NCBI GenBank assembly: GCA_009746045.1
Contig: RPFO01000380.1
Span: 1,126,343-1,190,342, forward strand
Length of the DNA stretch: 64,000 bases
Source of the DNA: Mesostigma viride
Taxonomy: Eukaryota; Streptophyta; Mesostigmatophyceae; Mesostigmatales; Mesostigmataceae
Direction of reading: 5' to 3'
The position numbers and the translations under genes are program-made. Below are positions 19,498 through 57,490 of this stretch, one piece after another (within the stretch, counting starts at the first letter, position 1; every line of letters starts with the position of its first letter). A model generated the notes under the pieces. It did no database searches. It saw only the letters and a program-made list of their open reading frames with translations, and was not told the DNA's origin.

Positions 19498-19532
19498 GAC
19501 TACAGGAAACGTATTACAGTGAGTTCCTGGTC
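19498..19532 (-). promoter_or_regulatory. El2 3'-UTR hairpin complementary to its primer site
   Basis: Plus-strand arms GACTACAGGAAAC (19498-19510) and GTTCCTGGTC (19523-19532) pair with small bulges. The sequence CGTATTACAGT (19510-19520) overlaps the end of the left arm and the loop and is identical to the first 11 sense nucleotides after the 5' LTR, so the two are complementary in the RNA. Ignoring the later MITE it lies about 310 nt before the 3' LTR, comparable to El1. Confidence 0.65.
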
Positions 19533-20161
19533 TTCCCAGTTATCACTGGCGCCCGTTTCATGGCGCCCGCCCCGAGCGTTCCAGGCATCATCCATCCAAA
19601 TGTTCACCAATGGAAACCACTTCAACACCACTGTGCCACTGCTTGATGGGGAGCCCATGTCATCACTGGGTGTTAAAGCCCAGGAGTCATACATACCAGG
19701 CTGTGGCTCAACTAGGGAATCGAACCCTACCCCAGAACCCCAGGTTAAACTTAACCTGGTCACATGACAGACAACAAGAGAGATTGGCATACAACATGAT
19801 TATGTTTTATTATAGAATATCCACCAAAACCAATGTTGAGTGTTCCCAGTGGACCAGCCTGCACCAGCAAGGCCCAACTGTCAGGTTACAACACCATAAT
19901 ATCCAAGGTTGTCACTTATTCACAGCTAAAGAAAACTAAACAAGAGAGATATATACAAACAACCTGGAAGAACTCTCAACATGGCCTGCCCTGTCATGGC
20001 CTAACTGCCCGAGGCCAAAGGCATCCCACTGTGCTAATCCTTTACAGGAAGAGCTTGCTCCTGTTGAGCCTTCTACCTGCTTGGTGACAGGTAGGCTACC
20101 TGTTGCCCTCCCCCCTGGGGACAACAGCACTGGTCAGCCACCAACTGGCAAAGGCTGGACT

Positions 20162-26067: not shown

Positions 26068-26078
26068 ACTGTAATACG
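26068..26078 (-). promoter_or_regulatory. El2 primer-binding site candidate
   Basis: The sense strand reads CGTATTACAGT immediately after the 5' LTR. Its complement is found at 19510-19520 in the 3' region. The match stops exactly at the LTR edge. Confidence 0.6.
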
Positions 26079-26722
26079 ATTTAGATGAACGCGGATCAGT
26101 GAGTTTCTGGTCTTCCCAAGATGTGATGAATGGAGCCATGGTTTCAACCAGCGGCTTTTAACCTTTACCACAGTTGCCTCACTACCCTGTGGTCACTAGC
26201 CTGAGGCGGCAGTACCCACGGACGGTGTTGGGAAAAGACGCTTGGCCACTGCTGTGTCCGAGCCTTTCTAGGTCTCACCATTGCTGCCAGGCCTTGCACG
26301 CCTTGGCAGGTCCGCCACTGTCAATTTCCTTGGTTGCATCAATCCAGGACGTCTGTCCTTCCATGAATGACAGTAACGCTCTGGATTTATCCGTCATGAC
26401 AAGTACCCGTCCATCCCAGGCCTGCAGGACTGCCAGTCCTGAAGTCCTGTGACATTCTTGGTACCATCAACCAATATTGACCACAGTACCTCCTAGTGAC
26501 AGTCGGTCCTGTGACACGTAACGTGTGATGGTTCACCCAACACTGCCACGTGCCCTGTCCCTCACGTGTCCTTAGTCCTGGTACTGCTGTAGCGTCCGGC
26601 GGCATTACTTCGGGACTTGATAACTCTCAAGTTCCTTGTCCAAATGAGGCGTTTAGCACGGCGTTGGAAAAGCCACTTCAAGTATGATATGCTTAGCATA
26701 TTGCATCACCAATATGCTAACT
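26079..26722 (-). repeat. El2 5' LTR
   Basis: 644-bp LTR, partner of 17205-17848. An internal palindrome near its outer end (AGCATATTG...CAATATGCT) is present in both copies. Confidence 0.9.
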
Positions 26723-29700
26723 CAAGGGGCGGCTGCACACACACGTACACACACCATGCACGCAAGGGCCGGCTGCACACACACGTACATACACCGCGCA
26801 CGCAAGGGGCGGCTGCACACACACGTACATATACACCATGCACGCAAGGGGCGGCTGCACACACATGTACATCCACCGCGCACGCAAGGGGCGAGTGCAC
26901 ACACACGTACACACACCGCGCACGCAAGGGGCGGCTGCACACACACGTACACACACCATGCACGCAAGGGCCGGCATGCACACACACGTACATCCACCGC
27001 GCACGCAAGGGGCAACTGCACACACATGTACACACACCGCGCACGCTTGGGGCGGCTGCACTCACATGTACACACACCGCGCACGCAAGGGCCGGCTGCA
27101 CACACACTTACACTCACCATGCACGCATGGGGCGGCTGCACACACACGTACACACACCGCGCACGCAAGGGACGGCTGCACACACACGTACATACACCGC
27201 GCACGCAAGGGGCGGCTGCACACACACGTACATACACCATGCACGCAAGGGGCGGCTGCACACACATGTACATCCACCGCGCACGCAAGGGGCGAGTGCA
27301 CACACACGTACACACACCGCGCACGCAAGGGGCGGCTGCACACACACGTACACACACCATGCACGCAATTGCCGGCATGCACACACACGTACATCCACCG
27401 CGCACGCAAGGGGCAACTGCACACACATGTACACACACCGCGCACGCTTGGGGCGGCTGCACTCACATGTACATACACTGCGCACGCAAGGGGCGGCTGC
27501 ACACACACGTACACACACCATGCACGCAATTGCTGGCATGCACACACACCCACTGCCCGCACATGTACATCCACCGCGCACGCAAGGGGCGCCTGCACCC
27601 ACATGTACATACACCGTGCACGCAAGGACAAGGATGAACACACATGTACACACACCATGCACGCAAGGGCCGGCTGCACACACACGTACATACACCGCGC
27701 ACGCAAGGGGCTGCTGCACACACACTTACACACAAAATGCACGCTTGGGGCGACGGCACTCACATGTACATACACCGCGCACGAAAGGGGTGGCTGCACA
27801 CACACGTACATCCACCGCGCACGCAAGGGGCGGCTGCACACACACATACATACACCATGCACGCAAGGGGCGAGTGCAAAAACATGTACATACACCGCGC
27901 ACGCAAGGGGCAACTGCCCACACATGGACATACACTGCGCACGCAAGGGGAGGCTGCATTAACACGTACATACACCGCGCACGCAAGGGGCGGCTGCACA
28001 CACACGTACACACACCATGCACGCAAGGGCCGGCTGCACACACACGTACATACACCGCGCACGCAAGGGGCGGCTGCACACACACGTACATATACACCAT
28101 GCACGCAAGGGGCGGCTGCACACACATGTACATCCACCGCGCACGCAAGGGGCGAGTGCACACACACGTACACACACCGCGCACGCAAGGGGCGGCTGCA
28201 CACACACGTACACACACCATGCACGCAAGGGCCGGCATGCACACACACGTACATCCACCGCGCACGCAAGGGGCAACTGCACACACATGTACACACACCG
28301 CGCACGCTTGGGGCGGCTGCACTCACATGTACACACACCGCGCACGCAAGGGCCGGCTGCACACACACTTACACTCACCATGCACGCATGGGGCGGCTGC
28401 ACACACACGTACACACACCGCGCACGCAAGGGACGGCTGCACACACACGTACATACACCGCGCACGCAAGGGGCGGCTGCACACACACGTACATACACCA
28501 TGCACGCAAGGGGCGGCTGCACACACATGTACATCCACCGCGCACGCAAGGGGCGAGTGCACACACACGTACACACACCGCGCACGCAAGGGGCGGCTGC
28601 ACACACACGTACACACACCATGCACGCAATTGCCGGCATGCACACACACGTACATCCACCGCGCACGCAAGGGGCAACTGCACACACATGTACACACACC
28701 GCGCACGCTTGGGGCGGCTGCACTCACATGTACATACACTGCGCACGCAAGGGGCGGCTGCACACACACGTACACACACCATGCACGCAATTGCTGGCAT
28801 GCACACACACCCACTGCCCGCACATGTACATCCACCGCGCACGCAAGGGGCGCCTGCACCCACATGTACATACACCATGCACGCAAGGACAAGGATGAAC
28901 ACACACGTACATACACCATGCACGCAAGGGCCGGCATGCACACACACGTACATACACTGCGCACGCAAGGGGCAACTGCACACACACGTACACACCATGC
29001 ACGGAAGGGACGGCTGCACTTACATGTACATCCACCGCGCAACCACGGGGCGGCTGCACACACACGTACATACACCGCGCACGCAAGGGGCGGCTGCACA
29101 CACACGTACATACACCGCGCACGCAAGGGGCGGCTGCACACACACGTACACACACCTTGCACGCAATTGCCGGCATGCACACACACGTACATCCACCGCG
29201 CACGCAAGGGGCAACTGCCCACACATGTACACACACCGCGCACGCAAGGGCCGGCTGCACACACACGTACATACACCGCGCACGCAAGGGGCAACTGCAC
29301 ACACACGTACACACACCATGCACGCAAGGGCCGGCTGCACTCACATGTACACACACCATGCACGCAAGGGCCGGCTGCACACACACTTACACACACAATG
29401 CACGCTTGGGGCAACGGCACTCACATGTACATACACCATGCACGCAAGGGGCGGCTGCACACACACGTACACACACCATGCACGCAAGGAGCGACTTCAC
29501 GCACAGGTACACACACCATGCACGCAAGGTTCGGCTGCACACACATGTACATCCACCGCGCACGCAAGGGGCGAGTGCAAACACATGTACATACACCGCG
29601 CACGCAAGGGCCGGCTGCACTCAATTGTACATACACCGCCCATGCAAGGGGCAGCTGCACACACACGTACATACACTGCGCACGCAAGGGGCTGCTGCAC

Positions 29701-32390
29701 ACACACTTACACTCACCATGCACGCAAGGGGCGGCTGCACACACACGTACACACACCGCGCACGCAAGGGACGGCTGCACACACACGTACATACACCGCG
29801 CACGCAAGGGGCGGCTGCACTTACATGTACACACACCGCGCACGCAAGGGGCGGCTGCACACACACGTACATACACCGCCCACGCAAGGACCGGCTCCAC
29901 TCACATGTACATCCACCGCGCAACCACGGGGCGGCTGCACACACACGTACATACACCGCGCACGCAAGGGGCGGCTGCACACACACGTACATACACCGCG
30001 CACGCAAGGGGCGGCTGCACTCACATGTACGTACACCGCGCACGCAAGGGGCAACTGCCCGCACATGTACATCCACCGCGCACGCAAGGGGCGAGTGCAC
30101 ACACACGTACACACACCGCGCACGCAAGGGGCGGCTGCACACACACGTACACACACTGCGCACGCAAGGGGCGGCTGCACTTACATGTACACACACCGCG
30201 CACGCAAGGGGCGGCTGCACACACACGTACATACACCGCCCACGCAAGGACCGGCTCCACTCACATGTACATCCACCGCGCAACCACGGGGCGGCTGCAC
30301 ACACACGTACATACACCGCGCACGCAAGGGGCGGCTGCACACACACGTACATACACCGCGCACGCAAGGGGCGGCTGCACTCACATGTACGTACACCGCG
30401 CACGCAAGGGGCAACTGCCCGCACATGTACATCCACCGCGCACGCAAGGGGCGAGTGCACACACACGTACACACACCGCGCACGCAAGGGGCGGCTGCAC
30501 ACACACGTACACACACCATGCACGCAAGGGCCGGCATGCACACACACGTACATCCACCGCGCACGCAAGGGGCAACTGCACACACATGTACACACACCGC
30601 GCACGCTTGGGGCGGCTGCACTCACATGTACACACACCGCGCACGCAAGGGCCGGCTGCACACACACTTACACTCACTATGCACGCATGGGGCGGCTGCA
30701 CACACACGTACACACACCGCGCACGCAAGGGACGGCTGCACACACACGTACATCCACCGCGCACGCAAGGGGCAACTGCACACACACATTAACACACCAT
30801 GCACGCAAGGGGCGGCTGCACACACATGTACATCCACCGCGCACGCAAGGGGCGACTGACATACACCATGCACGCAAGGACAAGGATGCACACACATGTA
30901 CATACACCGCGCACGCAAGGGGCGGCTGCACACACACGTACATACACCGCGCACGCAAGGGGCGAGTGCGCACACACGTACATACACCGCGCACGCAAGG
31001 GGCGGCTGCACACACACGTACATACACCGCGCACGCAAGGGGCCAGTGCAAGCACATGTACATACACCATGCACGCAAGGGCCGGCATGCACAGAAACGT
31101 ACATACACCGCGCACGCAAGGGGCTGCTGCACACACACGTACACACACCATGCACGCACGGGGCGGCTGCACACACACGTACATCCACTGCGCACGCACG
31201 GGGCGACTGCACACACATGTACATAAACCATGCACGCAAGGGGCGGCTGCACACACATGTACATCCACCGCGCACGCAAGGGGCGAGTGCAAACACACAT
31301 ACACACACAATGCACGCTTGGGGCAACGGCACTCACATGTACATACACCATGCACGCAAGGGGCGGCTGCACACACACGTACACACACCATGCACGCAAG
31401 GAGCGACTTCACGCACAGGTACACACACCATGCACGCAAGGTTCGGCTGCACACACATGTACATCCACCGCGCACGCACGGGGCCAGTGCAAGCACATGT
31501 ACATACACCATGCACGCAAGGGGCGGCTGCACACACATGTACATACACCGCGCACGCAAGGGGCGAGTGCAAACACATGTACATACACCGCGCACGCAAG
31601 GGGCAACTGCCCGCACATGTACATCCACCGCGCACGCAAGGGGCGGCTGCACACACATGTACACACACCATGCACGCAAGGACAAGGATGCACACACATG
31701 TACACACACCCTGCACGCAAGGGGCGGCTGCACACACACGTACACACACCGCGCACGCAAGGGGCGAGTGCAAACACATGTACATACACCATGCACGCAA
31801 GGACAAGGATGCACACACATGTACACACACCATGCACGCAAGGGGCGGCTGCACACACACGTACATACACAATGCACGGTTGGGGCGACGGCACTCACAT
31901 GTACATACACCATGCACGCAAGGACAAGGATGCACACGCATGTACATACACCGCGCACGCAAGGGGCGGCTGCACACACATGTACATACACCATGCACGC
32001 AAGGGGCGGCTGCACACACATGTACATCCACCGCGCACGCAAGGGGCGAGTGCACACACACGTACACACACCGCGCACGCAAGGGGCGGCTGCACACACA
32101 CGTACACACACCATGCACGCAATTGCCGGCATGCACACACACGTACATCCACCGCGCACGCAAGGGGCAACTGCACACACATGTACACACACCGCGCACG
32201 CTTGGGGCGGCTGCACTCACATGTACATACACTGCGCACGCAAGGGGCGGCTGCACACACACGTACACACACCATGCACGCAATTGCTGGCATGCACACA
32301 CACCCACTGCCCGCACATGTACATCCACCGCGCACGCAAGGGGCGCCTGCACCCACATGTACATACACCATGCACGCAAGGACAAGGATG
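26723..32390 (+). repeat. 40-bp satellite array, segment 5 with higher-order repeats
   Basis: The longest uninterrupted satellite stretch (5.7 kb). The block from about 26724 to 27631 recurs at an offset of 1261 bp (about 27985-28892). A 360-bp unit (nine monomers) is tandemly duplicated at about 29813-30172 and 30173-30532. A plus-strand frame of 1391 codons runs through most of the segment and is considered non-coding. Confidence 0.95.
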
Positions 32391-32872
32391 AGTTGGTTGG
32401 AGACCCATCTAGGGTCCACATGGGTCCTCAGAGATAGAGGATCTTGTACAGATTACTACAATATACTTTATTGTAGTATTGGGCCAATGGCTGTACTTCA
32501 CTAGTACTCGCCAATGGGATAACGCCACGTAGAATATGTGGGCGTCTCCCAGGCCTCCACGTCACCGGCTGGTCAAGGGCCGGTGTAGTACTGTCAATAG
32601 GACTGAGCCGACTATCGGCCTATTATGTATGCGCATCTGCCTTGGTACCTCCTAGAGGATTCTAGAAGTATCTAACACGCGGCATGCACTGAACTACACG
32701 GAATGCATGTCCACGTAGGATATTCAGCAAGACTGATGAAGGTGCCAAGCGCAATAGAATATATGCGCAACGAAGACGAATTATGCAGCAACGACAATAA
32801 CGTATGAGAACAATAAACACAACGTTCATTTCATGCTTTCTGATTTACATCGCATTCCATTTATTTGCAACT
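32391..32872 (+). repeat. El3 5' LTR
   Basis: 482 bp, AGTTGGTTGG...TTTGCAACT. ACTACAATATACTTTATTGT near 32455 and the AT-rich end are possible promoter/terminator parts, but I cannot define the transcription start. Confidence 0.92.
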
Positions 32873-32883
32873 TGTATTCATTG
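32873..32883 (+). promoter_or_regulatory. El3 primer-binding site candidate
   Basis: TGTATTCATTG directly after the LTR; the first nine bases are shared with El1. The exact reverse complement CAATGAATACA lies at 38314-38324. The gag ATG begins only 3 nt downstream. Confidence 0.65.
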
Positions 32884-32885
32884 CA

Positions 32886-34127
32886 ATGTCTTCGGACGAC
32901 AATCTTTCAGAGCAGAGGTCTGGCCCTGGTGAGCACGGACCGGCTCAATTTTCTGTCGACCCTGGCCCAGGCGAGCACAGGGATGACAATAAGAATATGT
33001 CCGACCAGCCCCGGGAGGAGGGCTGCGGGCAGGGAAGTACTAGTAGTGACAACCAGCGTGCGCGTGATAAGGTGCTTCGGCGGGAGACCTTGCTTCAAGA
33101 GGCGAAGCTGCTGTCGGCAATCAAGAAATGGGTTCCAGCCCCGCTGGTGCCTGGTGCTATTCAAGCAGACCGGGATCGCTTTGTAAGCTCTCTTGGGCCG
33201 TTTTTCCGCAGGCTCGCGGGCAACCGAGACATCATTCCGGACTGGCTGGAGTTTCTTCGTGGAACCCCGCTGGGAGACCGCGAGAAAAACCACCCAGAGT
33301 GGATTTCGCTGCTGGATAGAGCACAGCGTCTGCGGTGGTCGCCGTTCGAGTTTCTGCGCCGAGCGAGGGAGACTTTTCTTCGTTCTATCACTGCCAAAAC
33401 CTGCGACGAGATCGAGGAATTTGTAGATGCAAAGCCGAAGCCCGGGCAGACCATCATCGAGCACCTCAACTCTTACTACGACATGCTGGAGAAGCAGGGG
33501 CTCCGGTGGCCTGACGAGGCGGTGAATCTCCGATGGATCCAAAACTGTGCTCTGTCCGAATCCGAGAAGCGGAATTTGGTCGCCAACTGCCGCGGTTACC
33601 TGTGCGACACTCACCGATGCAGAGCTCACCTCAAGGAGCTCCTGACGAATCAAACCCGTGTTTCCAGAGAAGGAGGTGCCGCGGAGGTGCCTCGTGTCGC
33701 CATGGTGATGGAGCAGCAACGGGAAATCTTCTGCTACAACTGCGGGCAGCCCGGGCACACACGCCGCGCATGTAAGGGTAAGGTTGTCGCTAATTCTGAG
33801 TCCTTCCCTCCCTGCACTTTCTGTAATAGGACTAACCATCTGGCTAAGGATTGCTACTTTCGCAAGTGCAAGTCTTGTGGCAATTCTGGACATGATGCGT
33901 CTGCCTGCAGGAGCAAGGCGGGCGCTGGACCCAAGGATACCCAGATGGAGGTCCTCAAGCTGCTGCAGCAGATCTCCCAAGCCGTCAAGAGCGGTGCCCT
34001 TCGTGGTGGCGACGCTTCTCAGCCGCGTGGTGGTGACGCTTCCCAGCCGCGTGGTGGTGATGCTTCTCAGCCGCGGGGTGGCAATACCTCTCGTGGCCGC
34101 AAGAGGAAGCAGCAGCAGAAAAACTAG
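32886..34127 (+). CDS. El3 gag with three CCHC zinc knuckles
   Basis: 413 codons from the ATG at 32886 (MSSDDN), 13 nt after the LTR; the open frame reaches further back only through a TTG. A Pro/Gly-rich N-terminus is followed by a capsid-like helical domain (about residues 60-250), then three canonical knuckles CYNCGQPGHTRRAC, CTFCNRTNHLAKDC and CKSCGNSGHDASAC, and a C-terminal tail of repeated RGGDASQP units ending in a basic cluster. The repeats are perfect at the protein level and nearly so in DNA, which suggests recent slippage. Pol starts 38 nt downstream in another frame, so pol expression needs re-initiation, a separate mRNA or recoding. Function: particle assembly and RNA packaging. 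Confidence 0.9.
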   Translation: MSSDDNLSEQRSGPGEHGPAQFSVDPGPGEHRDDNKNMSDQPREEGCGQGSTSSDNQRARDKVLRRETLLQEAKLLSAIKKWVPAPLVPGAIQADRDRFVSSLGPFFRRLAGNRDIIPDWLEFLRGTPLGDREKNHPEWISLLDRAQRLRWSPFEFLRRARETFLRSITAKTCDEIEEFVDAKPKPGQTIIEHLNSYYDMLEKQGLRWPDEAVNLRWIQNCALSESEKRNLVANCRGYLCDTHRCRAHLKELLTNQTRVSREGGAAEVPRVAMVMEQQREIFCYNCGQPGHTRRACKGKVVANSESFPPCTFCNRTNHLAKDCYFRKCKSCGNSGHDASACRSKAGAGPKDTQMEVLKLLQQISQAVKSGALRGGDASQPRGGDASQPRGGDASQPRGGNTSRGRKRKQQQKN

Positions 34128-34165
34128 ATGATCCTCTCTGTTTATATAACCCCTACAGCGTCCTT

Positions 34166-37100
34166 ATGGATGCTGATGAGAGTGGACTCATGGCAGATGA
34201 GGCCTGCCAGGTGGTAGGGGCTCCAGCAGTAACCCCTACTGACCGTAAAGCTGCCCCAGTGAGCAGCAGTAAAAGTGCCCCTGTTTGTGGCATTCCTATC
34301 CATGCCTGGAATAAAAAGAGTACCCCAGAGGGAACTCTTCCTGTAAATAATACATGTGGATCTGCTCCTGGTTGTAGACAGATGCCACATGGTGTTGCCC
34401 AGGTGAGCAACGTATCTGTGAACAATACATGTGGTGCAGCTCCTGTTTGTAGCCAAGCACCCATTGATATTGTTAACAGTCAAGCTCCTCAGAGCAATAA
34501 TCCTTGTTATATTGATAATAAAAACTTGGACTCTTGCTCTGCCAGGAACGTGGATGCCCGTCCATGTCCTGAAGAGCCTGAGCCTAATGATTGTATTAAT
34601 CTTAGGACTCTGGCTAAGAGTTTGCATGATGCCTGTGGCCATGGAAACAATGCCATTAGGCTTGTTCAAGCCATTAATAACAAGGCTCTCTGGCAGGCTT
34701 ATCAAGATGTCAGAGAACATTGTGTGTGCCAATTGTGTGCTAACAAGCCTTCCAAACGTCATGCAAAGCATCCTGCAGATGGTAGGGGTAATCTACAAGC
34801 TGATATCCTCTACTTCACCAATTACAGGCAATTGCCTTACTTGGTGGCTGTGGATGAATGGTCAGGCTACATTGGAATTGAACCTATGGCAGCAGGGGAT
34901 GAGAATACTCTCCATGCCGCAGTTCTTGTTATTCTGCAGAAGTTTGCAGTTATTCATAAGCTGCAGATGGACTTGCAGTTTAACTGCCTGACCAAATACT
35001 CTGATCTGCCTTTCCTAAGGATTGTGGGTCGTGAAGATCACCAAGCCCAAGGCAAGGTTGACAGATATATACAGGAGCTTAAGAAGTTGGTAATATCCGG
35101 GGACTATCCTGAGATGTTTAAACCAACTTTTGCTGTCAGGTGTTTGGGTGCTGCAAAAGTGGAAAACACCATGAACAACCGTTTTCATACTATCAAGGTG
35201 CGTGGTGTTCCACGGCTGGTCTCACCTCGTGGACTAGCAGGTGGCCTCTACCCTGATGACATCATGCAGGCATGGAGTAAGCAGAGGTGGGCACAGTATG
35301 CTCATCTCTGTGAAAAGGATAAACAGAGAGGAGAATCATTAAAATTTGAGGTGGGAGACCAGGTGATCTTCCACAAAGAAAATGCTCCTGGTAAACGTGG
35401 TTATTGGCAGGGTCCAGGGACCATAACCTCAGTTGACCTGGAGATGAAAACTGCTGATGTGGTCTGGAATGGGACCACTTATCATCTGGCTTGGAATAGA
35501 TTGAAGAGAGATCCAATGAACGTTCAAGAAAATCCCCTGGAAATTATGGCCCCTGAAGAGGCACTTGGATCTCCCAATCTTTCCTGTCCACCTTTGGCCA
35601 GTGAACAGGCTGGACTCCAACTACCAGAAAGGGCGGCCTCCCATCAACTGGAGCCTACTACTCAGCAAGCTCAGCCTAAGACATTGACTGGGATATCACA
35701 GGATGATATGGATGAAGCTGACTTGTTGGATAATAGGGTGTCTGATCAGCACCGGAAGCTCCGGCCGTTGGAACATGGGCTTGAGACCCCTGGGCAGGTG
35801 GATAACATATTTCAGTCTGAACAGCCAAAGCTTGGATCCAATTACCCTGGTAATAAGCCATTGCCCTTGGAGACTGATGGGATTCCAGCCCAAGGAAGAC
35901 AAGCTGAGGAGGGGTTGTCCAGGTTGAACACTCAGCTCGGCAAGAGAGGCAATCCTCAAGAGCTTCGGGATATTGTAAAGAAGCTCAAGCCCTCACTAAA
36001 GATTGCCAAAATAACTTCTCTTCTAGAGAAGGGCATGGACCTTGATGGCTTTGATGTGGATACCAAAGCAGAGGTCTCTGTCACCTCGCCCTTTAATGCT
36101 TTGCTGGATAAGTATTCCCTTGAACCCAGTCCATGGACTATTGTCCAAGACTTTGCGGGTAACACTGATCATCAAGTTCTTGGGAATATCACTATCCCAT
36201 TCTTGGGTGAGTCTTTGACACTTTGTGTTGTTGATGGCTATAAGGGACCCACTCTCATTGGCCAGCCATTCTTGGTGACTCCCGGTGTTACCATTGTTGA
36301 TGGCCCCAATAACACAAAGAGTCTCCTAAAAACCCATTGTGACCCAATTCCTCTGGAATCATTCAGATGTCTCTTGCCTCTTGAAATGTTCCAGAAGGCA
36401 AATTGGAAGACCGCCTGTGTCGGTTCAATAAAAGGAGCAGAATGGGGAAGGGATATACCCCCAGCTTCTGAGCTGGTAGAACCCGCCCAGCTCAGTGTGA
36501 CTTCTCTTGGTCTCACAAAAAGGTCATTTGCTGCTCATAGCCCCATGTCCTTTGATGATGTAGACCTGGATTGTCACACTTTCGCTGGCCTTGAGGCCTG
36601 GCGAGTAGCATTGGCGCGTGCGCTCCAGGAGTGGCAAACGCTGGATGTTTTTGAAGGCATTTCAGAACCTCCACCCAATGCTCAAATGCTTCAGTTGCGT
36701 TTTGTATGCAAGATGAAGAGCAAGCTTGGTGAGCCTCCCATACCAAACGCACGTCCAGTCGTGACCCAGTTCCATGGTACTACAGACTTTGATAAGGAGG
36801 AGCTGTACACTCCTGGCCTGTCACATCCTGTTCTCAGGCTTATTCTTAGTCTGTACCTTGGTGCTTTGGACTATGGCTTGGATTATGGAGCAGAAATTGA
36901 TGACTTCACCAGGGCCTTTTTGCATGGTGATCCTCAGGTGGCCAGAGCCACTTGGCAAGCTCAAAGACCCTGTTGTGTTAAGACCCCAGCATGCTGGATA
37001 GCTGAAGTAGGTCATCCCTACATGCAGCCTAAAGTGGGCTGGGAAGGACTGGTCAGCAGTCCAGTCATCTGGTATGAAACCATTGCTCCTGCCATCCAGG

Positions 37101-38095
37101 AGAGATGTCAGATGCAACAATCTCATCTTGCTTATTGTCTCTTTGTGGGGCAATCCAAAGGACAACCCACCTGGGCTACCTTACATGGAGATGATATGCA
37201 ACGCATTGGTCCCAAGGGATGGTTGAATGAGACCTATAAAAGGCTCAATGACAAGTCCCCTATTGGTACCAGAGCATGGTTTAGTAAAAACAGCCAGGTA
37301 CCTTACTGTGGCATTGGCTGTACCCTTTTCCAGGATGACAAAGGATGGCATCTTAAGCTGCAATCGGCGAAGGGGTATAAAGAAAAAGTAATAACTCAGT
37401 TGCCCAAGAGAGTAACTGAGGAGAATGCCCCTACGGTTAAAGGTCAACTGGGTTGGCTGGCTGCCACAACTAACCCTGACCTGGCAGTACAGAGTAGGAT
37501 GCCAGACTCTGTTGTTGTAGGAGAAGGAAGGAGGCGCCTGGAGAGCTGCCTCAATGAATCTCCTGACTTGGTGTTGTCCGGTGTAGACTGGCATGGGCGC
37601 ATCATCATAGACGCCTACACAGATGCTAGCCAAGAGTCTAGATCTGCCAACAAGATTGGTGCCAGAGCCGGATGCCTGATCACCATCAGGAATGAAGGCA
37701 AACAGCCCTCGTTGGTATACTGGTCCAGTAACCTTCAGAGGAGGCGGTTTGCTGGCATTGACACCGCTGAGTGCAGGGCATACGCCATGTGCATTCGCGA
37801 TGCCATATACATAAGAGAGCTACTCTTATGGTGTCTGAGTCAGATAAGACCTCAACCCGTGATTGATGTCAGGGTTTATTGTGATAATAAGCCCGTGGTC
37901 TCTTTTATCAAGAATGAGAGGGCCACTACTACTGACTTGGACTACCTTGTGGCAAAGGAGTTGTCCAGCCACTGTATAACCATACATCTGCCAGGACACT
38001 CAAATCCTGCTGATGCTATGACCAAGCTTCCACGACTGGCCCTTAATGGGTACCAGTTGCTGCGGTCCATGATGGCTGGGAAACCCTTGTCATGA
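34166..38095 (+). CDS. El3 pol polyprotein: integrase, protease-like, RT, RNase H
   Basis: 1309 codons without interruption. N-terminal linker (1-140). Integrase: zinc finger (HDACGH ... CQLCANK), core with DILYF/VAVDEW, LQMDLQFNCL and GREDHQAQGKVDR (third acidic position Asp, 35060-35062), and C-terminal barrel (GPGTITSVDLE), to about residue 450. Protease-like domain at about 630-710: DVDTKAEVSV then TLIGQPFL. RT at about 800-1090: IDDFTRAFLHGD, WEGLVSSPVIW, LHGDDM (HGDD at 37184-37195). RNase H at the end: DAYTDASQE, DTAECRA, YCDNKP, NPADAMTKL. The order integrase-protease-RT differs from Copia (protease-integrase-RT). The protease has K where Gly is normal in DTG. Intact length argues that these oddities are functional. 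Confidence 0.92.
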   Translation: MDADESGLMADEACQVVGAPAVTPTDRKAAPVSSSKSAPVCGIPIHAWNKKSTPEGTLPVNNTCGSAPGCRQMPHGVAQVSNVSVNNTCGAAPVCSQAPIDIVNSQAPQSNNPCYIDNKNLDSCSARNVDARPCPEEPEPNDCINLRTLAKSLHDACGHGNNAIRLVQAINNKALWQAYQDVREHCVCQLCANKPSKRHAKHPADGRGNLQADILYFTNYRQLPYLVAVDEWSGYIGIEPMAAGDENTLHAAVLVILQKFAVIHKLQMDLQFNCLTKYSDLPFLRIVGREDHQAQGKVDRYIQELKKLVISGDYPEMFKPTFAVRCLGAAKVENTMNNRFHTIKVRGVPRLVSPRGLAGGLYPDDIMQAWSKQRWAQYAHLCEKDKQRGESLKFEVGDQVIFHKENAPGKRGYWQGPGTITSVDLEMKTADVVWNGTTYHLAWNRLKRDPMNVQENPLEIMAPEEALGSPNLSCPPLASEQAGLQLPERAASHQLEPTTQQAQPKTLTGISQDDMDEADLLDNRVSDQHRKLRPLEHGLETPGQVDNIFQSEQPKLGSNYPGNKPLPLETDGIPAQGRQAEEGLSRLNTQLGKRGNPQELRDIVKKLKPSLKIAKITSLLEKGMDLDGFDVDTKAEVSVTSPFNALLDKYSLEPSPWTIVQDFAGNTDHQVLGNITIPFLGESLTLCVVDGYKGPTLIGQPFLVTPGVTIVDGPNNTKSLLKTHCDPIPLESFRCLLPLEMFQKANWKTACVGSIKGAEWGRDIPPASELVEPAQLSVTSLGLTKRSFAAHSPMSFDDVDLDCHTFAGLEAWRVALARALQEWQTLDVFEGISEPPPNAQMLQLRFVCKMKSKLGEPPIPNARPVVTQFHGTTDFDKEELYTPGLSHPVLRLILSLYLGALDYGLDYGAEIDDFTRAFLHGDPQVARATWQAQRPCCVKTPACWIAEVGHPYMQPKVGWEGLVSSPVIWYETIAPAIQERCQMQQSHLAYCLFVGQSKGQPTWATLHGDDMQRIGPKGWLNETYKRLNDKSPIGTRAWFSKNSQVPYCGIGCTLFQDDKGWHLKLQSAKGYKEKVITQLPKRVTEENAPTVKGQLGWLAATTNPDLAVQSRMPDSVVVGEGRRRLESCLNESPDLVLSGVDWHGRIIIDAYTDASQESRSANKIGARAGCLITIRNEGKQPSLVYWSSNLQRRRFAGIDTAECRAYAMCIRDAIYIRELLLWCLSQIRPQPVIDVRVYCDNKPVVSFIKNERATTTDLDYLVAKELSSHCITIHLPGHSNPADAMTKLPRLALNGYQLLRSMMAGKPLS

Positions 38096-38279
38096 GGAGT
38101 AATCTGGGAGCCTGAGCCTAATGCTCCTCCTGTAGGTTTTTATCCCCCTGGAGGTTTTGTCCTCTCTGGAGAAGAGGTTTTCCTTCAGATTTGGGTTTTC
38201 CCTACAGCAGGTTACACCAACCATGCAATGATGAGATGCAAACTCCATAAGACCCAAGTGAGTCCCCATTGCCCACATA

Positions 38280-38346
38280 TGTGAAAGTGAACTGGCCAGG
38301 TGCGGCCGAACATCAATGAATACATCTAAGCCTTATCACTTTCACA
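38280..38346 (+). promoter_or_regulatory. El3 3'-UTR hairpin presenting the primer-site complement
   Basis: An 11-bp perfect stem TGTGAAAGTGA (38280-38290) / TCACTTTCACA (38336-38346) encloses a 45-nt loop with a small GGCC/GGCC helix and the sequence CAATGAATACA (38314-38324). That sequence is complementary over 11 nt to the first nucleotides after the 5' LTR. If the RNA were cut after ...AATACA, its 3' OH would sit exactly where minus-strand cDNA must start. From 38096 to 38279 no gene is seen. Confidence 0.72.
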
Positions 38347-38363: not shown

Positions 38364-38845
38364 AGTTGGTTGGAGACCCATCTAGGGTCCACATGGGTCC
38401 TCAGAGATAGAGGATCTTGTACAGATTACTACAATATACTTTATTGTAGTATTGGGCCAATGGCTGTACTTCACTAGTACTCGCCAATGGGATAACGCCA
38501 CGTAGAATATGTGGGCGTCTCCCAGGCCTCCACGTCACCGGCTGGTCAAGGGCCGGTGTAGTACTGTCAATAGGACTGAGCCGACTATCGGCCTATTATG
38601 TATGCGCATCTGCCTTGGTACCTCCTAGAGGATTCTAGAAGTATCTAACACGCGGCATGCACTGAACTACACGGAATGCATGTCCACGTAGGATATTCAG
38701 CAAGACTGATGAAGGTGCCAAGCGCAATAGAATATATGCGCAACGAAGACGAATTATGCAGCAACGACAATAACGTATGAGAACAATAAACACAACGTTC
38801 ATTTCATGCTTTCTGATTTACATCGCATTCCATTTATTTGCAACT
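38364..38845 (+). repeat. El3 3' LTR
   Basis: 482-bp copy of the El3 LTR, followed by the GGATG target duplication. Confidence 0.92.
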
Positions 38846-41800
38846 GGATGAACACACACGTACATACACCATGCACGCAAGGGCCGGCATGCACACACAC
38901 GTACATACACTGCGCAAACAAGGGGCAACTGCACACACACGTACACACCATGCACGGAAGGGACGGCTGCACTTACATGTACATCCACCGCGCAACCACG
39001 GGGCGGCTGCACACACACGTACATACACCGCGCACGCAAGGGGCGGCTGCACACACACGTACATACACCGCGCACGCAAGGGGCGGCTGCACACACACGT
39101 ACACACACCTTGCACGCAATTGCCGGCATGCACACACACGTACATCCACCGCGCACGCAAGGGGCAACTGCCCACACATGTACACACACCGCGCACGCAA
39201 GGGCCGGCTGCACACACACGTACATACACCGCGCACGCAAGGGGCAACTGCACACACACGTACACACACCATGCACGCAAGGGCCGGCTGCACTCACATG
39301 TACACACACCATGCACGCAAGGGCCGGCTGCACACACACTTACACACACAATGCACGCTTGGGGCAACGGCACTCACATGTACATACACCATGCACGCAA
39401 GGGGCGGCTGCACACACATGTACACACACCATGCACGCAAGGAGCGACTTCACGCACAGGTACACACACCATGCACGCAAGGTTCGGCTGCACACACATG
39501 TACATCCACCGCGCACGCAAGGGGCGAGTGCAAACACATGTACATACACCGCGCACGCAAGGGCCGGCTGCACTCAATTGTACATACACCGCCCATGCAA
39601 GGGGCGGCTGCACACACACGTACACACACCGCGCACGCAAGGGACGGCTGCACACACACGTACATACACCGCGCACGCAAGGGGCGGCTGCACACACACG
39701 TACATACACCATGCACGCAAGGGGCGGCTGCACACACACTTACACTCACCATGCACGCAAGGGGCGGCTGCACACACACGTACACACACCGCGCACGCAA
39801 GGGACGGCTGCACACACACGTACATACACCGCGCACGCAAGGGGCGGCTGCACTTACATGTACACACACCACGCACGCAAGGGGCGGCTGCACACACACG
39901 TACATACACCGCCCACGCAAGGACCGGCTCCACTCACATGTACATCCACCGCGCAACCACGGGGCGGCTGCACACACACGTACATACACCGCGCACGCAA
40001 GGGGCGGCTGCACACACACGTACATACACCGCGCACGCAAGGGGCGGCTGCACTCACATGTACGTACACCGCGCACGCAAGGGGCAACTGCCCGCACATG
40101 TACATCCACCGCGCACGCAAGGGGCGCCTGCACCCACATGTACCTACACCATGCACACAAGGACAAGGATGAACACACATGTACATACACCGCGCACGCA
40201 AGGGGCGGCTGCACACACACGTACACACACCATGCACGCAAGGGCCGGCATGCACACACACGTACATCCACCGCGCACGCAAGGGGCAACTGCACACACA
40301 TGTACACACACCGCGCACGCTTGGGGCGGCTGCACTCACATGTACACACACCGCGCACGCAAGGGCCGGCTGCAGACACACTTACACTCACCATGCACGC
40401 ATGGGGCGGCTGCACACACACGTACACACACCGCGCACGCAAGGGACGGCTGCACACACACGTACATACACCGCGCACGCAAGGGGCGGCTGCACACACA
40501 CGTACATACACCATGCACGCAAGGGGCGGCTGCACACACATGTACATCCACCGCGCACGCAAGGGGCAAGTGCACACACACGTACACACACCGCGCACGC
40601 AAGGGGCGGCTGCACACACACGTACACACACCATGCACGCAATTGCCGGCATGCACACACGTACATCCACCGCGCACGCAAGGGGCAACTGCACACACAT
40701 GTACACACACCGCGCACGCTTGGGGCGGCTGCACTCACATGTACATACACTGCGCACGCAAGGGGCTGCTGCACACACACTTACACTCAGTCACCGTGCA
40801 CGCATGGGGCGGCTGCACACACACGTACACACACCGCGCACGCAAGGGACGGCTGCACACACACGTACATATTACACCGCGCACACAAGGGGCGGCTGCA
40901 CTCACATGTACATCCACCGCGCAACCACGGGGCGGCTGCACACTCACGTACATACACCGCGCACGCAAGGGGCTGCTGCACACACACTTACACACACAAT
41001 GCACGCTTGGGGCGACGGCACTCACATGTACATACACCGCGCATGCAAGGGGTGGCTGCACACACACGTACATCCACCGCGCACGCAAGGGGCGGCTGCA
41101 CACACACATACATACACCATGCACGCCAGGGGCGGCTGCACACATACGTACCTACACCGCGCACGCAAGGGGCTGCTGCACACACACTTACACACACCAT
41201 GCACGCTTGGGGCGGCTGCACACACACGTACCTACACCGCGCACGCAAGGGGCGGCTGCACACACACGTACATACACCGCGCATGCAAGGGGTGGCTGCA
41301 CACACACGTACATCCACCGCGCACGCAAGGGGCGGCTGCACACACACATACATACACCATGCACGCCAGGGGCGGCTGCACACATACGTACCTACACCGC
41401 GCCCGCAAGGGGCGGCTGCACACACACTTACACACACCATGCACGCAAGGGCCGGCATGCACACACACTGGCATACACCGCGCACGCAAGGGGCGGCTGC
41501 ACACACGTACACACACCATGCACGCTTGGGGCGGCTGCACACACACGTACCTACACCGCGCACGCAAGGGGGGCTGCACACACACGTACACACACCGCGC
41601 ACGCAAGGGGCGGCTGCACTCACATGTACACCCACCATGCACGCAAGGGGCGGCTGCACACACACGTACATACACCGCGCACGCAAGGGGCAACTGCCCA
41701 CACCTGGACATACACTGCGCACGCAAGGGCCGGCTGCATTAACACGTACATACACCGCGCACGCAAGGGGCGGCTGCACACATACGTACCTACACCGCGC

Positions 41801-42388
41801 ACGCAAGGGGCTGCTGCACACACACTTACACACACCATGCACGCAAGGGCCGGCATGCACACACTGTCACTGGCATACACCGCGCACGCAAGGGGCGGCT
41901 GCACACACGTACACACACCATGCACGCTTGGGGCGGCTGCACAGACACGTACCTACACCGCGCACGCAAGGGGCAACTGCACACACATGTACACACACCG
42001 CGCACGCAAGGGCCGGCTGCACACACACGTACATACACCGCGCACGCAAGGGGCAACTGCCCGCACATGTACATCCACCGCGCACGCAAGGGGCGGCTGC
42101 ACCCACATGTACATACACCATGCACGCAAGGACAAGGATGAACACACATCTACACACACCATGCACGCAAGGGCCGGCTGCACACACACGTACATACACC
42201 ATGCACGCAAGGGCCGGCATGCACACACACGTACATACACTGCGCACGCAAGGGGCAACTGCACACACACGTACACACACCATGCACGGAAGGGACGGCT
42301 GGACTCACATGTACATCCACCGCGCAACCACGGGCCGGCTGCACACACACGTACATACACCGCGCACGCAAGGGGCGGCTGCACTCAC
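38846..42388 (+). repeat. 40-bp satellite array, segment 6
   Basis: The first ~730 bp repeat 28893-29620 at an offset of 9953 bp, so El3 split one copy of a duplicated satellite block. From about 40,790 the units become less regular, with 2-3 bp insertions and deletions (for example CACTGTCACTGGC near 41865) and a 240-bp repeat at about 41035-41400. Confidence 0.94.
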
Positions 42389-43118
42389 ATCCAATCATTG
42401 CTTTATCCCATTGGAGTGAGGGGCTGCCAGAAGAACCAGATTTATTACATATAAGTGATAAGCCCACGTCAAGGCCGTAGCCAATCTGAGACTCTAGACT
42501 AACTAGGCCACCCGACAGGTGGCTAGGACATCACATTACCAGGGCCAACTCACCTGGGCCAGTCATGAGGACCTGGACTTGTAATACCCTCAAGCAGCGA
42601 GGGAGGGCGGGTGGGAGCTGCAAAGAGGCCTAATTGTGGCAGTACCACAACCCTAAGTAGTCGGACCGCCCTGGGGTGGCGCGTGCCAGCCCACTGACCA
42701 AAAGGCCAGTGGCACCGTGACGCGCGCCAGCCCACTGACCAAAAAGGCCAGTGGTGCCGTGGCGCGCGCCAGCCCACTGACCAAAAGGCCAGTGGCGCCG
42801 CGCCACCCCCGGTCCACACTACCCCCCCCTCACTTCTAGTCGGACTGACTACTGCGGCCGCCCCTCCCCCTTTGAGTATGCCGCAAGTCATAGATAATAC
42901 GAGCGTGAGCTCACAAAATCCAATCATTGCTTTATCCCATTGGAGTGAGGGGCTGCCAGAAGAACCAGATTTATTACATATAAGTGATAAGCCCACGTCA
43001 AGGCCGTAGCCAATCTGAGACTCTAGACTAACTAGGCCACCCGACAGGTGGCTAGGACATCACATTACCAGGGCCAACTCACCTGGGCCAGTCATGAGGA
43101 CCTGGACTTGTAATACCC
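42389..43118 (-). repeat. N1 B2-A2-B1 repeat cluster
   Basis: Plus-strand order: B2 (42389-42589), linker (42590-42615), A2 (42616-42917), B1 (42918-43118). The A unit contains a 51-bp-scale tandem motif GCCAGCCCACTGACCAAAA...GGCCAGTGG repeated three times, and ends GAGCTCACAAA. Confidence 0.85.
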
Positions 43119-44211
43119 CAAACCCCCAACCTGGCCCTCGGCCGCAGGCTGTCGCGTGACCCCGCCTCCCGTCGCCCCCCGTGTCCCCTGCCGCTACCAG
43201 CGGCTCCATCAGCCTAGCCAGGCGGCAATACAACGGGGGGAGCTAATAGTCTTCCTGAGCAGGATGATTCATCCCCAGGCCCAGCACACATCCCCTCACC
43301 CCAAAAGGTGCAGCTCGTCGAGGGTAAAGACACGCCGGATAAAACACAACCCCACGGGCCCGCCACACAGGTGGGTCCTTACACGTCCCCCCCCTCGTGG
43401 GGGGCGGGGAAAACGCAAAGGCAGAGCGGAGCCCGCAGCCTTACCGCGGGCGAAGCGGAGCCTTCGCGTTTTCCACGCACCCCGCGAGGGGAAAAATTTT
43501 TTTTTTGGAAACCTGCCAACCCGTGAGGGGTTTTCCACGCACCCTCCCCCGCACCCAAGCTGCGTCCTTGGATTCCCCCTCCGCCTGTACGCCATGCCCC
43601 GTCATCCCGTTTTTATGTTTTTGCACCATGGAAGCAGACCAACGATGTAACATAGCAGTAGCCGGGTGCCCGTTAAGGCACCGGACCCTACCCTCTCGTC
43701 TGCAGCACGAGGCTCCTCCTCCTCCATGCGTTGGGTAAAATTCTGCCCTTATATACTGCATGGACACTTCCCCCAACAATTCGTCACCTCGCCATCCCCC
43801 GCACCTCCCCTTCTGGCCCACGCCGGCCGGAGGGAATACGCCAGGCGAACTGAATTTCAGGTTTCGGCAGCTTGGACCACGCAATACTGTTTTACAGTGA
43901 TTCCTGCACCATCTCACGATTTTTACCACCCGCCTGCACTATTCCACAGCTCCCGTCGACTGTGGCCTGGCCTGCCCAAATCATCTCGTGGCAGGAGATG
44001 ATGTTCCATAGTGTCGGTCGGCGCCCAAATAATGCAGTGGAAATCGAGTCCTGTACTTCGAAAAACAGGGGCCCCGCCACCTTCCCCCCTCGGCGGCCAA
44101 AAATTTAAATCACTCTGGGCCCTCCCGAATAAACGGGAAGGCTGGTAGCCATCGACTAATTTGGGCTTGTGCCGCCATGGCCAGCCGCCACCGAATTTCG
44201 ATGGTCGCGAC
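43119..44211 (-). other. N1 internal region, no recognisable gene
   Basis: 1093 bp, GC-rich, similar over parts to the internal region of N2 (for example CTGCCGCTACCAG and CAGGCGGCAATACAA blocks). Short ORFs exist (up to about 160 codons) but none has a recognisable domain or is shared with N2. It includes an A/T-run hairpin-like stretch near 43490-43510. Confidence 0.7.
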
Positions 44212-44513
44212 AGCTGCAAAGAGGCCTAATTGTGGCAGTACCACAACCCTAAGTAGTCGGACCGCCCTGGGGTGGCGCGTGCCAGCCCACTGACCAAAAG
44301 GCCAGTGGCACCGTGACGCGCGCCAGCCCACTGACCAAAAAGGCCAGTGGTGCCGTGGCGCGCGCCAGCCCACTGACCAAAAGGCCAGTGGCGCCGCGCC
44401 ACCCCCGGTCCACACTACCCCCCCCTCACTTCTAGTCGGACTGACTACTGCGGCCGCCCCTCCCCCTTTGAGTATGCCGCAAGTCATAGATAATACGAGC
44501 GTGAGCTCACAAA
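44212..44513 (-). repeat. N1 A1 repeat
   Basis: 302-bp copy of 42616-42917 forming the outer end of N1; the satellite resumes with ATGTACATACACCG. Confidence 0.85.
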
Positions 44514-45680
44514 ATGTACATACACCGCGCACGCAAGGGGCAACTGCCCGCACATGTACATCCACCGCGCACGCAAGGGGCGGCTGCACACACACGTACA
44601 TCCACTGCGCACGCACGGGGCGACTGCACACACATGTACATAAACCATGCACGCAAGGGGCAGCTGCACACACATGTACATCCACCGCGCACGCAAGGGG
44701 CGAGTGCAAACACATGTACATACACCGCGCACACAAGGGGCAACTGCCCACACATGTACATCCACCGCGCACGGAAGGGCCGGCTGCACTCACACGTACA
44801 TACACTGCGCATGCAAGGGGCGCCTGCACACACACGTACACACACCATGCACGCAAGGGCCGGCATGCACACACACGTACATACACTGCGCACGCACGGG
44901 GCGACTGCCCACACATGTACATCCACCGCGCACGGAAGGGCCGGCTGCACTCACACGTACATACACTGCGCATGCAAGGGGCGCCTGCACACACACGTAC
45001 ACACACCATGCACGCAAGGGCCGGCATGCACACACACGTACATACACTGCGCACGCACGGGGCGACTGCACACACATGTACATACACCATGCACGCAAGG
45101 GGCGGCTGCACACACATGTACATACACCGCGCACGCAAGGGGCGAGTGCAAACACATGTACATACACCGCGCACGCAAGGGGCAACTGCCTGCACATGTA
45201 CATCCACCGCGCACGCAAGGGGCGGCTGCACACACATGTACACACACCATGCACGCAAGGACAAGGATGCACACACATGTACACACACCATGCACGCAAG
45301 GGGCGGCTGCACACACACGTACATACACCGCGCACGCAAGGGGCGGCTGCACACACATGTACATACACCATGCACGGAAGGACAAGGATGCACACACATG
45401 TACACACACCATGCACGCAAGGGGCGGCTGCACACACACGTACATACACAATGCACGGTTGGGGCGACGGCACTCACATGTACATACACCATGCACGCAA
45501 GGACAAGGATGCACACACATGTACATACACCGCGCACGCAAGGGGCGGCTGCACACACACGTACATACACCGCGCACGCAAGGGGCGAGTGCGCACACAC
45601 GTACATACACCGCGCACGCAAGGGGCGAGTGCGCACACACGTACATCCACCGCGCACGCAAGGGGCGGCTGCACACACAC
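44514..45680 (+). repeat. 40-bp satellite array, segment 7
   Basis: Satellite between N1 and N2. Its unit order resembles 31,180-32,000, including the GGACAAGGATGCAC variants. Confidence 0.94.
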
Positions 45681-52720: not shown

Positions 52721-53154
52721 AATCGTGGTTCTCTGAACATAGTTTCTTTATAGTGAGATGGAAGGGTAGCCGCTATAGCTAGGTTATTGGGTTCACGTGA
52801 CATACCTTTTGAGGCCGGTGCGGCCTGATCCGGATCAGTCGTGGCCAAAGCTTTGGCCAGTTTTTCTTGGCCAGGTGGCAGGAGCTACGTTGAGATATAA
52901 ACCTGCCACTGTCTAGGTTTCTTGGCTCATGGCGTAGTGATTAACTAGATCTAGATTCTTTCTCTCACGCAATATGTGACCTAATAGCCCCGGCAGCCTT
53001 ACGTAAGCTGCCGGCAATTAGAACGCCACATTGCGTCATTTGTTCAGACGCAACATTTGCGTGGCGAAAAAATGCCGTCCGGGCCAAGGCCGCATGACAC
53101 GCAAAAAAGGACAAAAACAAACCCACCTAGCTAAGGTCGGCCTCTTTTCTTTTC
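52721..53154 (+). repeat. DIRS element A1 repeat
   Basis: 434-bp split direct repeat identical by eye to 57626-58059. It should hold the promoter; CTGCCGGC/GCCGGCAG-type inverted repeats occur near 52991-53015. From 53155 to 53241 is a short leader before ORF1. Confidence 0.88.
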
Positions 53155-53241
53155 ACGAGGGCGGCGACAGCAAGCCAGGGGAAACGAACCTCTGGTTTGA
53201 CGAACCTGTACTGTCGGAGCCATTTTTGGCCCTGAGCAGCA

Positions 53242-54296
53242 ATGCCGAAGGGGCGCAAAGCTACAGGAGGGCAGGCAGCGCGCGGGGAGGACGGGACGCC
53301 CACACCGCGGGCTGCTGCCGCCAGTCACGCGCCAGTCGCCTTCAGCGCCAAAAAGAAGCAGCTCGCCACTCTGCTCGCCAAGTGCATCAGCCCCGCAGAG
53401 GCGGTGGGGGCAGTCGAGCAGGTCTTCGGTGCCGAGGACTGGGTGACGGACGCCAGCTCGTGGAGCTCGAGCCAGCTGAAGTCTGTCGTGCAGTTGCTGG
53501 CCGATCACGTTGATGTTGGCGACGTGTTGGACGCACGTGACCCAAACGGAACGTTGGTGGCAAAACTGCTGGCCGTGGCAGATCTCGCGGCGGACGAGGA
53601 GGAGGATCAGGCGCTGCCACCAACGACACCTGCGCAGCGAAAAATGGCCAAGCCGAAAGGCGCGGCCAAGGTTTCGGCAGGTGGGGGGGCTGTCGGAAAG
53701 GAAATGAGGGCGAGGTTGGCGACATTCGTTGGGGCACCTCCGGAAACCGAAAATCAGGACGACGAGGAGGACGAGGAGGGGGAGGTCGCAGCCGAGAAAT
53801 TCATGCAAGGTTTGAAGGCAGCGCTGGGAGGAATGGAGGGGGCGGGAAGCCACTTCAAGGCCTCGAAAGGGGTGGCGCTGCCAAGCCGAGCCAAGAGCGT
53901 GAAATATCGGGTTTCGGAGCGGGTGCTGCCGGGGGTGTTGGAGGACGCCAGCGACAATGGGATGGGAATCCGGTCGTGGGTCATGACGGTAAAGCCTGGA
54001 AATTGGCGGAACATGGAGAACAGGAAAATTGTCATGAACATTGCATTGGCCATGGACACCCTTCTCAAGGAGCTGGGCTCAGCAGCCGGGGAGCTTGTGG
54101 GCATGGAGTACCTAATGAGGGTGGTGGCGGCCTTGCTGCAGGTGGAAGGGCAAGGAGGGGGGGGTGGAAGGTGGCCAGCCACCTCCTGCCATTGGGGGAG
54201 GAGGCTGCACTGTCAGCCACCCCGGCTGTCAAGGCAGCTCTCCAAACTGCCATCCTCTTGGACAAGCTCAGCAAGGCTCAACAAGTAGGGAAATAG
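53242..54296 (+). CDS. DIRS ORF1, gag-like protein (frame change in a G run)
   Basis: Starts at ATG 53242 (MPKGRKATGG). Charged, Ala-rich N-terminus, acidic block (ENQDDEEDEEGE), then a conserved-looking helical region (VKPGNWRNMENRKI ... ALAMDTLLKEL). The frame as sequenced ends at 54288, but after the G8 run at 54157-54164 the adjacent frame continues as a sensible helix (LLPLGEEAALS ... LLDKLSKAQQ) to a stop at 54296. A 1-nt difference in the G run therefore separates the likely true C-terminus from the N-terminal part: sequencing error, mutation or slippage. Role inferred: particle/RNA binding. Confidence 0.75.
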
Positions 54297-57418: not shown

Positions 57419-57490
57419 TTTGGTTGTTCATTTCTCTGTCATTATGCTAGGTTCTTTGCCCCTGGCATGGATCGCCAGGGAGGGATATAA

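Follow-up and report, generated by a model that had tools for sequence, protein, structure and literature searches.

A hairpin in the 3' tail as the likely source of the minus-strand primer in El3 and related retrotransposons of Mesostigma viride

El3 is a long terminal repeat (LTR) retrotransposon found in a stretch of 64,000 nucleotides (nt) of the Mesostigma viride genome (GenBank assembly GCA_009746045.1, contig RPFO01000380.1, positions 1,126,343 to 1,190,342, forward strand), which is called the window below and in which all coordinates are counted. The 11 nt following its 5' LTR, TGTATTCATTG, have their full reverse complement, CAATGAATACA, in a hairpin 39 nt upstream of the 3' LTR, and the same arrangement, written in other letters, recurs in related families of the same genome. 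Based on these comparisons, it is likely that El3 and its relatives, which seem to form a divergent copia-like clade, supply their own minus-strand primer from a cut 3' hairpin. The features of El3 are as follows.

32386-32390 (5' copy) and 38846-38850 (3' copy), plus strand: target-site duplication GGATG, the flanking repeat
32391-32872, plus strand: 5' LTR, AGTTGG..GCAACT
32873-32883, plus strand: proposed primer-binding site TGTATTCATTG, adjoining the LTR edge
32886-34127, plus strand: gag open reading frame (ORF) with CCHC zinc knuckles (PF00098)
34166-38095, plus strand: pol ORF, whose parts, judged by their motifs and by alignment with relative B (weak RVT_2 match), we take to be integrase-like, protease-like, reverse transcriptase (RT) and RNase H-like
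38280-38290, plus strand: outer hairpin stem, 5' arm TGTGAAAGTGA
38298-38302, plus strand: apical stem, 5' arm AGGTG, then the GC box CGGCCG at 38303-38308
38314-38324, plus strand: proposed primer CAATGAATACA, whose final CA forms the uppermost pairs of the apical stem
38336-38346, plus strand: outer hairpin stem, 3' arm TCACTTTCACA
38364-38845, plus strand: 3' LTR

The site at the 5' LTR edge and its reverse complement near the 3' LTR had been pointed out in an earlier note made from the letters of this DNA, and both proved exact. The complement occurs only once across the element and, when the two LTRs (identical to each other) were searched on both strands, no run of seven or more letters of the 11-nt complement was found, which rules out for El3 a Tf1-style priming from the RNA 5' end within the LTR. 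The note had also placed the match in the loop of a perfect 11-bp hairpin. The outer stem is indeed paired at all 11 positions and encloses a 45-nt loop, but the match is mostly, not wholly, unpaired in the predicted fold, since its last CA pairs with the 5' side. The fold as a whole is ordinary when compared with shuffled sequences (z of -1.18, with 30 of 200 shuffles equally good), and the flanks of the match pair better than in all of 300 shuffles. A palindrome within the site, CATTGCAATG, was rejected as an explanation, being local to El3. An exact downstream complement of at least 11 nt also exists for 6 of 1985 other internal positions; for El3 alone, the probability of a chance match is small but not nil, and chance is removed as a cause because the match recurs in other families.

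Two of these relatives, A and B, lie on the minus strand of the window, and their pol proteins are about 33% identical to that of El3 in the RT part.

14719-15063, minus strand: relative A, 5' LTR, AGTTGAG..TTTAACT, duplication GCCCC
14707-14718, minus strand: relative A, proposed primer-binding site TGTATTCATAAA
9595-9606, minus strand: relative A, proposed primer TTTATGAATACA, in the hairpin loop
9576-9629, minus strand: relative A, 3' hairpin with outer stem ACACAGGGT/ACCCTGTGT
8911-9255, minus strand: relative A, 3' LTR
26079-26722, minus strand: relative B, 5' LTR, AGTTAGC..TCTAAAT, duplication CCTTG
26068-26078, minus strand: relative B, proposed primer-binding site CGTATTACAGT
19510-19520, minus strand: relative B, proposed primer ACTGTAATACG
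19506-19559, minus strand: relative B, apical hairpin GAAACG/CGTTTC, with the box GGCGCC
17205-17848, minus strand: relative B, 3' LTR

A search with the RT of B gave two relatives at 85%, one of which, B2, carries CGTATTATTGT after its LTR and the complement ACAATAATACG downstream. Further families were surveyed by searching for the motif LYTPG[LM], written as a codon-wobble pattern, which matched 1334 places (versus 1 in the control). The 100 places listed among these fall into 13 letter signatures, one of them being that of B2, and for each of the other 12 (F1 to F12) the first listed copy was taken, blind to its site. Left out of the test were F6 (L039, F1-like) and F8 (L040, F7-like), both without the 5' part, F11 (F1-like), whose 5' stretch reads N, and F12 (F1-like and carrying the site of F1), whose hairpin falls outside the fetched stretch. 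The LTR edge was fixed by target-site duplications in El3, A, B, F1, F2, F7 and F10, by the exact point at which the two LTRs diverge in F5, through the last 48 nt of the LTR (present twice) in F9 and from the alignment with F5 in F4, where the 3' LTR is missing. The LTR repeat overruns the edge by one base (C) in B2 and by two (TG) in F9, overruns that are taken for chance.

In this test, which addressed the compensatory changes that the earlier note had proposed to look for in relatives, 11 of the 12 testable elements (El3, A, B and B2 included), or 10 of 11 families, have a perfect complement of 9-12 nt starting at the LTR edge; in F1, F2, F4, F5, F7, F9 and F10 it measures 9-11 nt. F7 and F10 are counted as one family (99.75% identical over 6.9 kb), and for the other element pairs with a DNA match, F3 being outside the comparison, identity in the best-matching stretch does not exceed 79%. 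In all 11 elements, the complement is unique within the searched stretch and lies 5.1-7.0 kb downstream of the site. Seven distinct 9-mers are represented, and only the true pairing of sites with loops, one of 5040 permutations, reaches the full score. Paired changes can be followed directly in alignable elements: B and B2, whose DNA is 76% identical across 3.3 kb, differ at two of the 11 positions, on both sides, and F4 and F5 differ at one. Independent variation of site and loop was not seen, the one decayed copy being F3, discussed below. The RT frames of B, F4 and F9 are broken as well, and their match is still perfect.

An inverted repeat arising by chance would have in its favor that lone 9-nt matches are not rare: at other internal positions, a match of equal length is found for 1 to 98 of 1985 per element, with F10 at the upper end (98 of 1985). 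However, the log10 rates of the 11 elements sum to -24.4 (about -23 without F10, the near-twin of F7; the families are related and thus not independent), and the letters of site and loop covary. Position rates and covariation together refute this explanation, to which we assign a negligible probability.

The 3' hairpins were compared in nine elements, with F1 omitted as its box is not clear and F10 as the twin of F7. In these nine, a GC box (GGCGCC, CGGCCG or GGCGC) follows the 5' arm, and after it comes a loop of 15-43 nt with the primer at its end. We asked whether the final two bases of the primer (CA or CG) open the 3' arm of an apical stem, and the resulting pair runs measure 8 in B2 and F5, 7 in F4, 6 in B, 5 in El3 and F9 and 3 in F2 and F7, with a single pair in A. 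When the 5' arms were cross-tabulated against the 3' arms of all these elements, B, B2, F4, F5 and F9 each had their longest run with their own 3' arm, and for El3 the own run was tied. The apical stems of B, B2, F4 and F5 differ in letters on both sides and are paired nevertheless, a pattern that we regard as the best evidence for a predicted apical stem. Outer stems of 9-19 pairs are present in F7, F2, El3 and A, and the shuffles (out of 300) in which the flanks paired as well were 0 for El3, 1 for F7, 2 for F2, 7 for F9 and 17 for A. In these predicted hairpins, the stems change letters and stay paired in most families. The primer is followed directly by T in 10 of 11 elements and by G in A. 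Directly upstream of the primer, the 3' hairpins of B, B2, F4, F5, F1 and F2 carry GGAACTC, GGGACTC or GGACTC. A known Rfam motif was rejected as the identity of the hairpin, as none was found in the window at gathering scores, nor up to an expectation value (E) of 5 for the hairpins of B and El3.

Several observations weigh against a hairpin-borne primer and need to be set beside this evidence. The apical pairing is short in F2, F7 (three pairs each) and A (a single pair), and the 5' arms of these three pair as long or longer with foreign 3' arms (8 pairs for F2 and F7 with that of F5). Flank pairing in B, B2, F4, F5 and F1 is no better than in shuffled sequences, of which 51 to 103 in 300 did equally well. 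In F3, the loop that had been predicted was not found, and site and loop pair at 8 of 10 positions, with two mismatches; this copy is frameshifted, with frame changes in the RNase H part, resembles B2 at about 90% over 507 bp and could also be classed as a degraded copy of the B2 type, and its site/loop pair resembles, by inspection, that of F5 with one more change per side. The match lengths count Watson-Crick pairs alone, so that G-U pairs are kept out of the runs by construction, and all families were drawn from one genome. In B2, F9 and F4, the edge is based on homology instead of a target-site duplication. Finally, the statement of the earlier note that the complementarity stops at the LTR edge is true of 8 of the 11 elements but not of F2, F7 and F10, in which it reaches one base further, because the LTR ends in A and this pairs with the T after the primer. 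LTR termini vary in the clade, being AG..CT in El3, A, F1 and F9, AG..AT in B and TG..CA in F2, F7 and F10 (L032, L033, L036, L037 and L038 compared with the window).

As a rule, minus-strand synthesis in LTR elements and retroviruses is primed by host tRNAs, copia itself being primed by a half tRNA; minus-strand DNA begins at the right end of the LTR, so that this is where its primer has to end. None of the 12 sites starts with the TGG that marks a tRNA 3' end, and priming by such an end was rejected on this ground. For comparison, L029, a copia family of conventional type from this genome, found via RVT_2 and the single such family used as control, has the TGG-type site TGGTATCGGAGG at its LTR edge and no match of 9 nt or more for this edge site; nor is there one at the edge of element D (52721-58059), a tyrosine-recombinase element. 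A host tRNA with a better fit had been named by the earlier note as a possible counterexample, and none came up among the 20 tRNA loci that were compared (for Val, Thr, Asp, Ala, Asn, Ile, Lys and Met; 8 anticodons; some loci probably organellar or bacterial), 63 tRNA matches having been scored. Counted from the LTR edge, 8 of 9 different sites (that of F3 omitted) match these loci over at most 5 nt. The set lacks the tRNA of L029, whose tRNA-type site finds just 6 nt in it; it thus misses at least one needed tRNA, which makes the test a weak one. Given that the match ends at the LTR edge, that a TGG site is absent and that each family has its own self-matching letters, the loop is the likeliest primer.

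Some other host RNA, a half tRNA or another small RNA, might still prime, with the hairpin as its mimic or decoy. Half-tRNA primers are used by green-plant copia elements, according to excerpts of PMC6317226, the geometry is similar, and the site of A has an inner 8-nt match to one of the fetched tRNA loci, one that does not start from the edge. Against this stands the finding of at least seven different primer sequences in a single host, each of them equal to the element's own loop, and we consider such priming very unlikely.

The main rival is that the pairing merely joins the RNA ends, as CYC5-CYC3 does in Ty1, and that another RNA primes. In Ty1 (CYC5-CYC3) and Ty3 (bipartite primer-binding site, PBS), both ends of one RNA meet as they would here, and this 5'-3' contact is needed for efficient reverse transcription (PMC4974528, in the excerpts available); presentation in a loop also suits an end-to-end contact. 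In these yeast elements, however, tRNAiMet primes, and the CYC5 of Ty1 lies downstream of a separate PBS (PMC4974528, same excerpts), whereas in the El3 clade the putative PBS itself has its exact complement as the 3' partner and the match fills the PBS place from the edge in 11 of 12 elements. No other site is left at the LTR edge, and the tRNA loci, although an incomplete set, offer no more than the short matches given above. Cyclization as the sole role is thus unlikely in our view. A further proposal is that the pairing masks the start of gag and regulates translation or packaging. The first ATG of El3 lies 13 nt past the LTR edge, which would suit this role, but across the 11 elements this distance ranges from 13 to 93 nt and the start of the match is constantly at the edge; masking is accordingly given even less credence than a host primer.

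Returning to priming from the element's own hairpin, its steps of cutting, annealing, extension and rewriting are those we infer from the observed matches, their position and the covariation of site and loop and of several stems. The 3' tail of the RNA would fold into a hairpin whose loop bears the primer, 9-12 nt long, on its 3' side; in most families, the final two primer bases (CA or CG) would form the top stem pairs. The cut directly after these bases might be made by a host enzyme or, as in Tf1, by the RNase H of the element's RT, and it would fall just inside the stem, like that which yields half-tRNA primers from the anticodon stem. The freed 3' end could then anneal to the site beside the 5' LTR, on the same RNA or on a second packaged copy, and extension would start at the LTR edge. 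Plus-strand synthesis would copy the primer and the loop would in this manner rewrite the site in each cycle, which would explain why the matches are perfect despite the sequence differences between families. The earlier interpretation of the loop as a primer is thus supported via covariation, with cutting of the loop and its extension by reverse transcriptase as presumed steps.

In excerpts of PMC6317226, three kinds of primer are described, namely whole tRNA, half tRNA and a self-primer from the 5' LTR, the search for self-primers having covered the 5' LTR only. We are inclined to regard the element-encoded 3'-tail hairpin, similar to an anticodon arm and cut near the base of the loop, as a fourth kind, in which the site would be rewritten in each round and the clade, free of host tRNA, would let its primer drift freely. 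Among the closest known cases are the Tf1/sushi elements (Ty3/gypsy; also predicted for the copia lineage TAR), where a primer from the element's own RNA, 11 nt in Tf1, pairs with a site at the LTR edge, and the RNase H of Tf1 is able to cut such RNA duplexes (excerpts of PMC7175516 and, except for the cutting, PMC6317226). There, however, the 5' end of the RNA, located in the LTR beside the site, serves as primer, whereas in the El3 clade the hairpin is 5-7 kb off at the 3' end, the LTR of El3 is without a match and the RT is copia-like. Half-tRNA priming, as in Osser, Bryco, Gymco-II and Bianca, likewise draws the primer from an RNA hairpin cut near the loop, in the anticodon stem (PMC6317226, in excerpt), but that hairpin comes from a tRNA gene and is not encoded by the element.

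A proposal on the priming of the Cryptococcus elements Tcn2-5 reportedly goes back to Goodwin and Poulter (2001). It concerned a possibly novel mechanism, according to an excerpt of PMC7175516. The fungal elements GalEa (with its CHS hairpin), Skipper and SM-Tcn1 also have no TGG site, and their authors suspect other priming or leave it open (excerpts of PMC5445492, PMC5006619 and PMC2864245). In GalEa, by contrast, the hairpin is beside the LTR, with partners 12-41 bp apart (PMC5445492), and for Skipper and SM-Tcn1 no partner was found (PMC5006619, PMC2864245); the same excerpts make no mention of a 3'-tail hairpin for any of the three. Within the partial texts covered by our literature search, no element with a primer in a 3'-tail hairpin was found. 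The available parts of one M. viride genome paper (PMC7027972) contain neither "primer binding" nor "copia", and those of the other (PMC6947507), a study that produced RNA and small-RNA reads of this alga and that was searched for "copia" and repeats, do not contain "copia".

As judged from the excerpts of PMC5445492, PMC2864245 and PMC5006619, no accepted model of priming exists for several groups that lack a recognizable site, and a 3'-hairpin primer with natural covariation in about ten families would be a concrete one. It provides a simple search rule: the first 10 nt past the 5' LTR are taken and their complement is sought downstream of pol, in the tail that ends at the 3' LTR. Such priming, if correct, would also mean independence from silencing by tRNA fragments and a binding site that rewrites itself.

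The assignment of the clade as copia-like is a qualified one, resting on profiles and motifs. The gag CCHC knuckle is recognized as PF00098 in El3 and B, and the ORF in the place of gag in A has no PF00098 match. With the RVT_2 profile, B gives a weak match (E of 4e-4, below the curated cut-off) and El3 and A give none, nor does El3 pol match the conventional family L029 in tblastn. For residues 790-1309 of El3 pol, no homolog was found among 8000 candidates scored. A target-site duplication of 5 bp is common to El3 (GGATG), A (GCCCC) and B (CCTTG) and is also seen in F1, F2, F7 and F10. In the pol ORF at 34166-38095, as well as in A, B and L030, an integrase-like part is followed by a protease-like stretch (VDT..G.PF) and then by RT and RNase H, an order (IN-PR-RT-RH) that is not known for gypsy elements or for copia elements, whose order is PR-IN-RT-RH. 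The integrase-like labels (H..C..C residues, core and GPY/F-like stretch) are our presumption, and the structure model of the protease-like stretch is poor (predicted local distance difference test, pLDDT, of 48). The RT of B2 is 100% identical, over 69% of the query, to a protein in the EukProt set for M. viride, which is a streptophyte alga. A protein filed under Prorocentrum lima is 87% identical to the RT of B2, and an environmental protein 56% (P0002, P0003); these last two matches reflect either a wider spread of the clade or contamination.

In the 440-Mb genome, TGTATTCATTG was counted 371 times, versus 158 for the reversed control, and among the 100 places listed the excess is, by inspection, mostly in opposed pairs. 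El3 sequence was present in 19 of 20 fetched stretches (L026 being without), mostly as near-identical copies and deletion derivatives. As these copies were chosen through the site itself and hardly vary, they were not counted for covariation. L031 holds only the 3' portion of an El3 copy. Several El3 copies are packed in both orientations at C1:7254000-7273000 (L010, L011), with LTRs 99.2-99.8% like those of the window. The deletion derivatives L012, L016, L021, L024 and L027, which are without parts of gag-pol, retain both site and loop, as expected for cis-acting signals, in copies whose selection by the site makes this no test.

A, B and El3 are all inserted in a 40-bp minisatellite, which forms large arrays at 4721-8910, 26720-32390 and 38846-42400. 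Element D has identical 434-bp repeats and a stretch EGIHPNPGP, which we take to be 2A-like in an element that is presumably DIRS/PAT-like. Lastly, a 1.9-kb unit at 42616-44515 carries identical 304-bp direct repeats at its ends and is perhaps a non-autonomous element.

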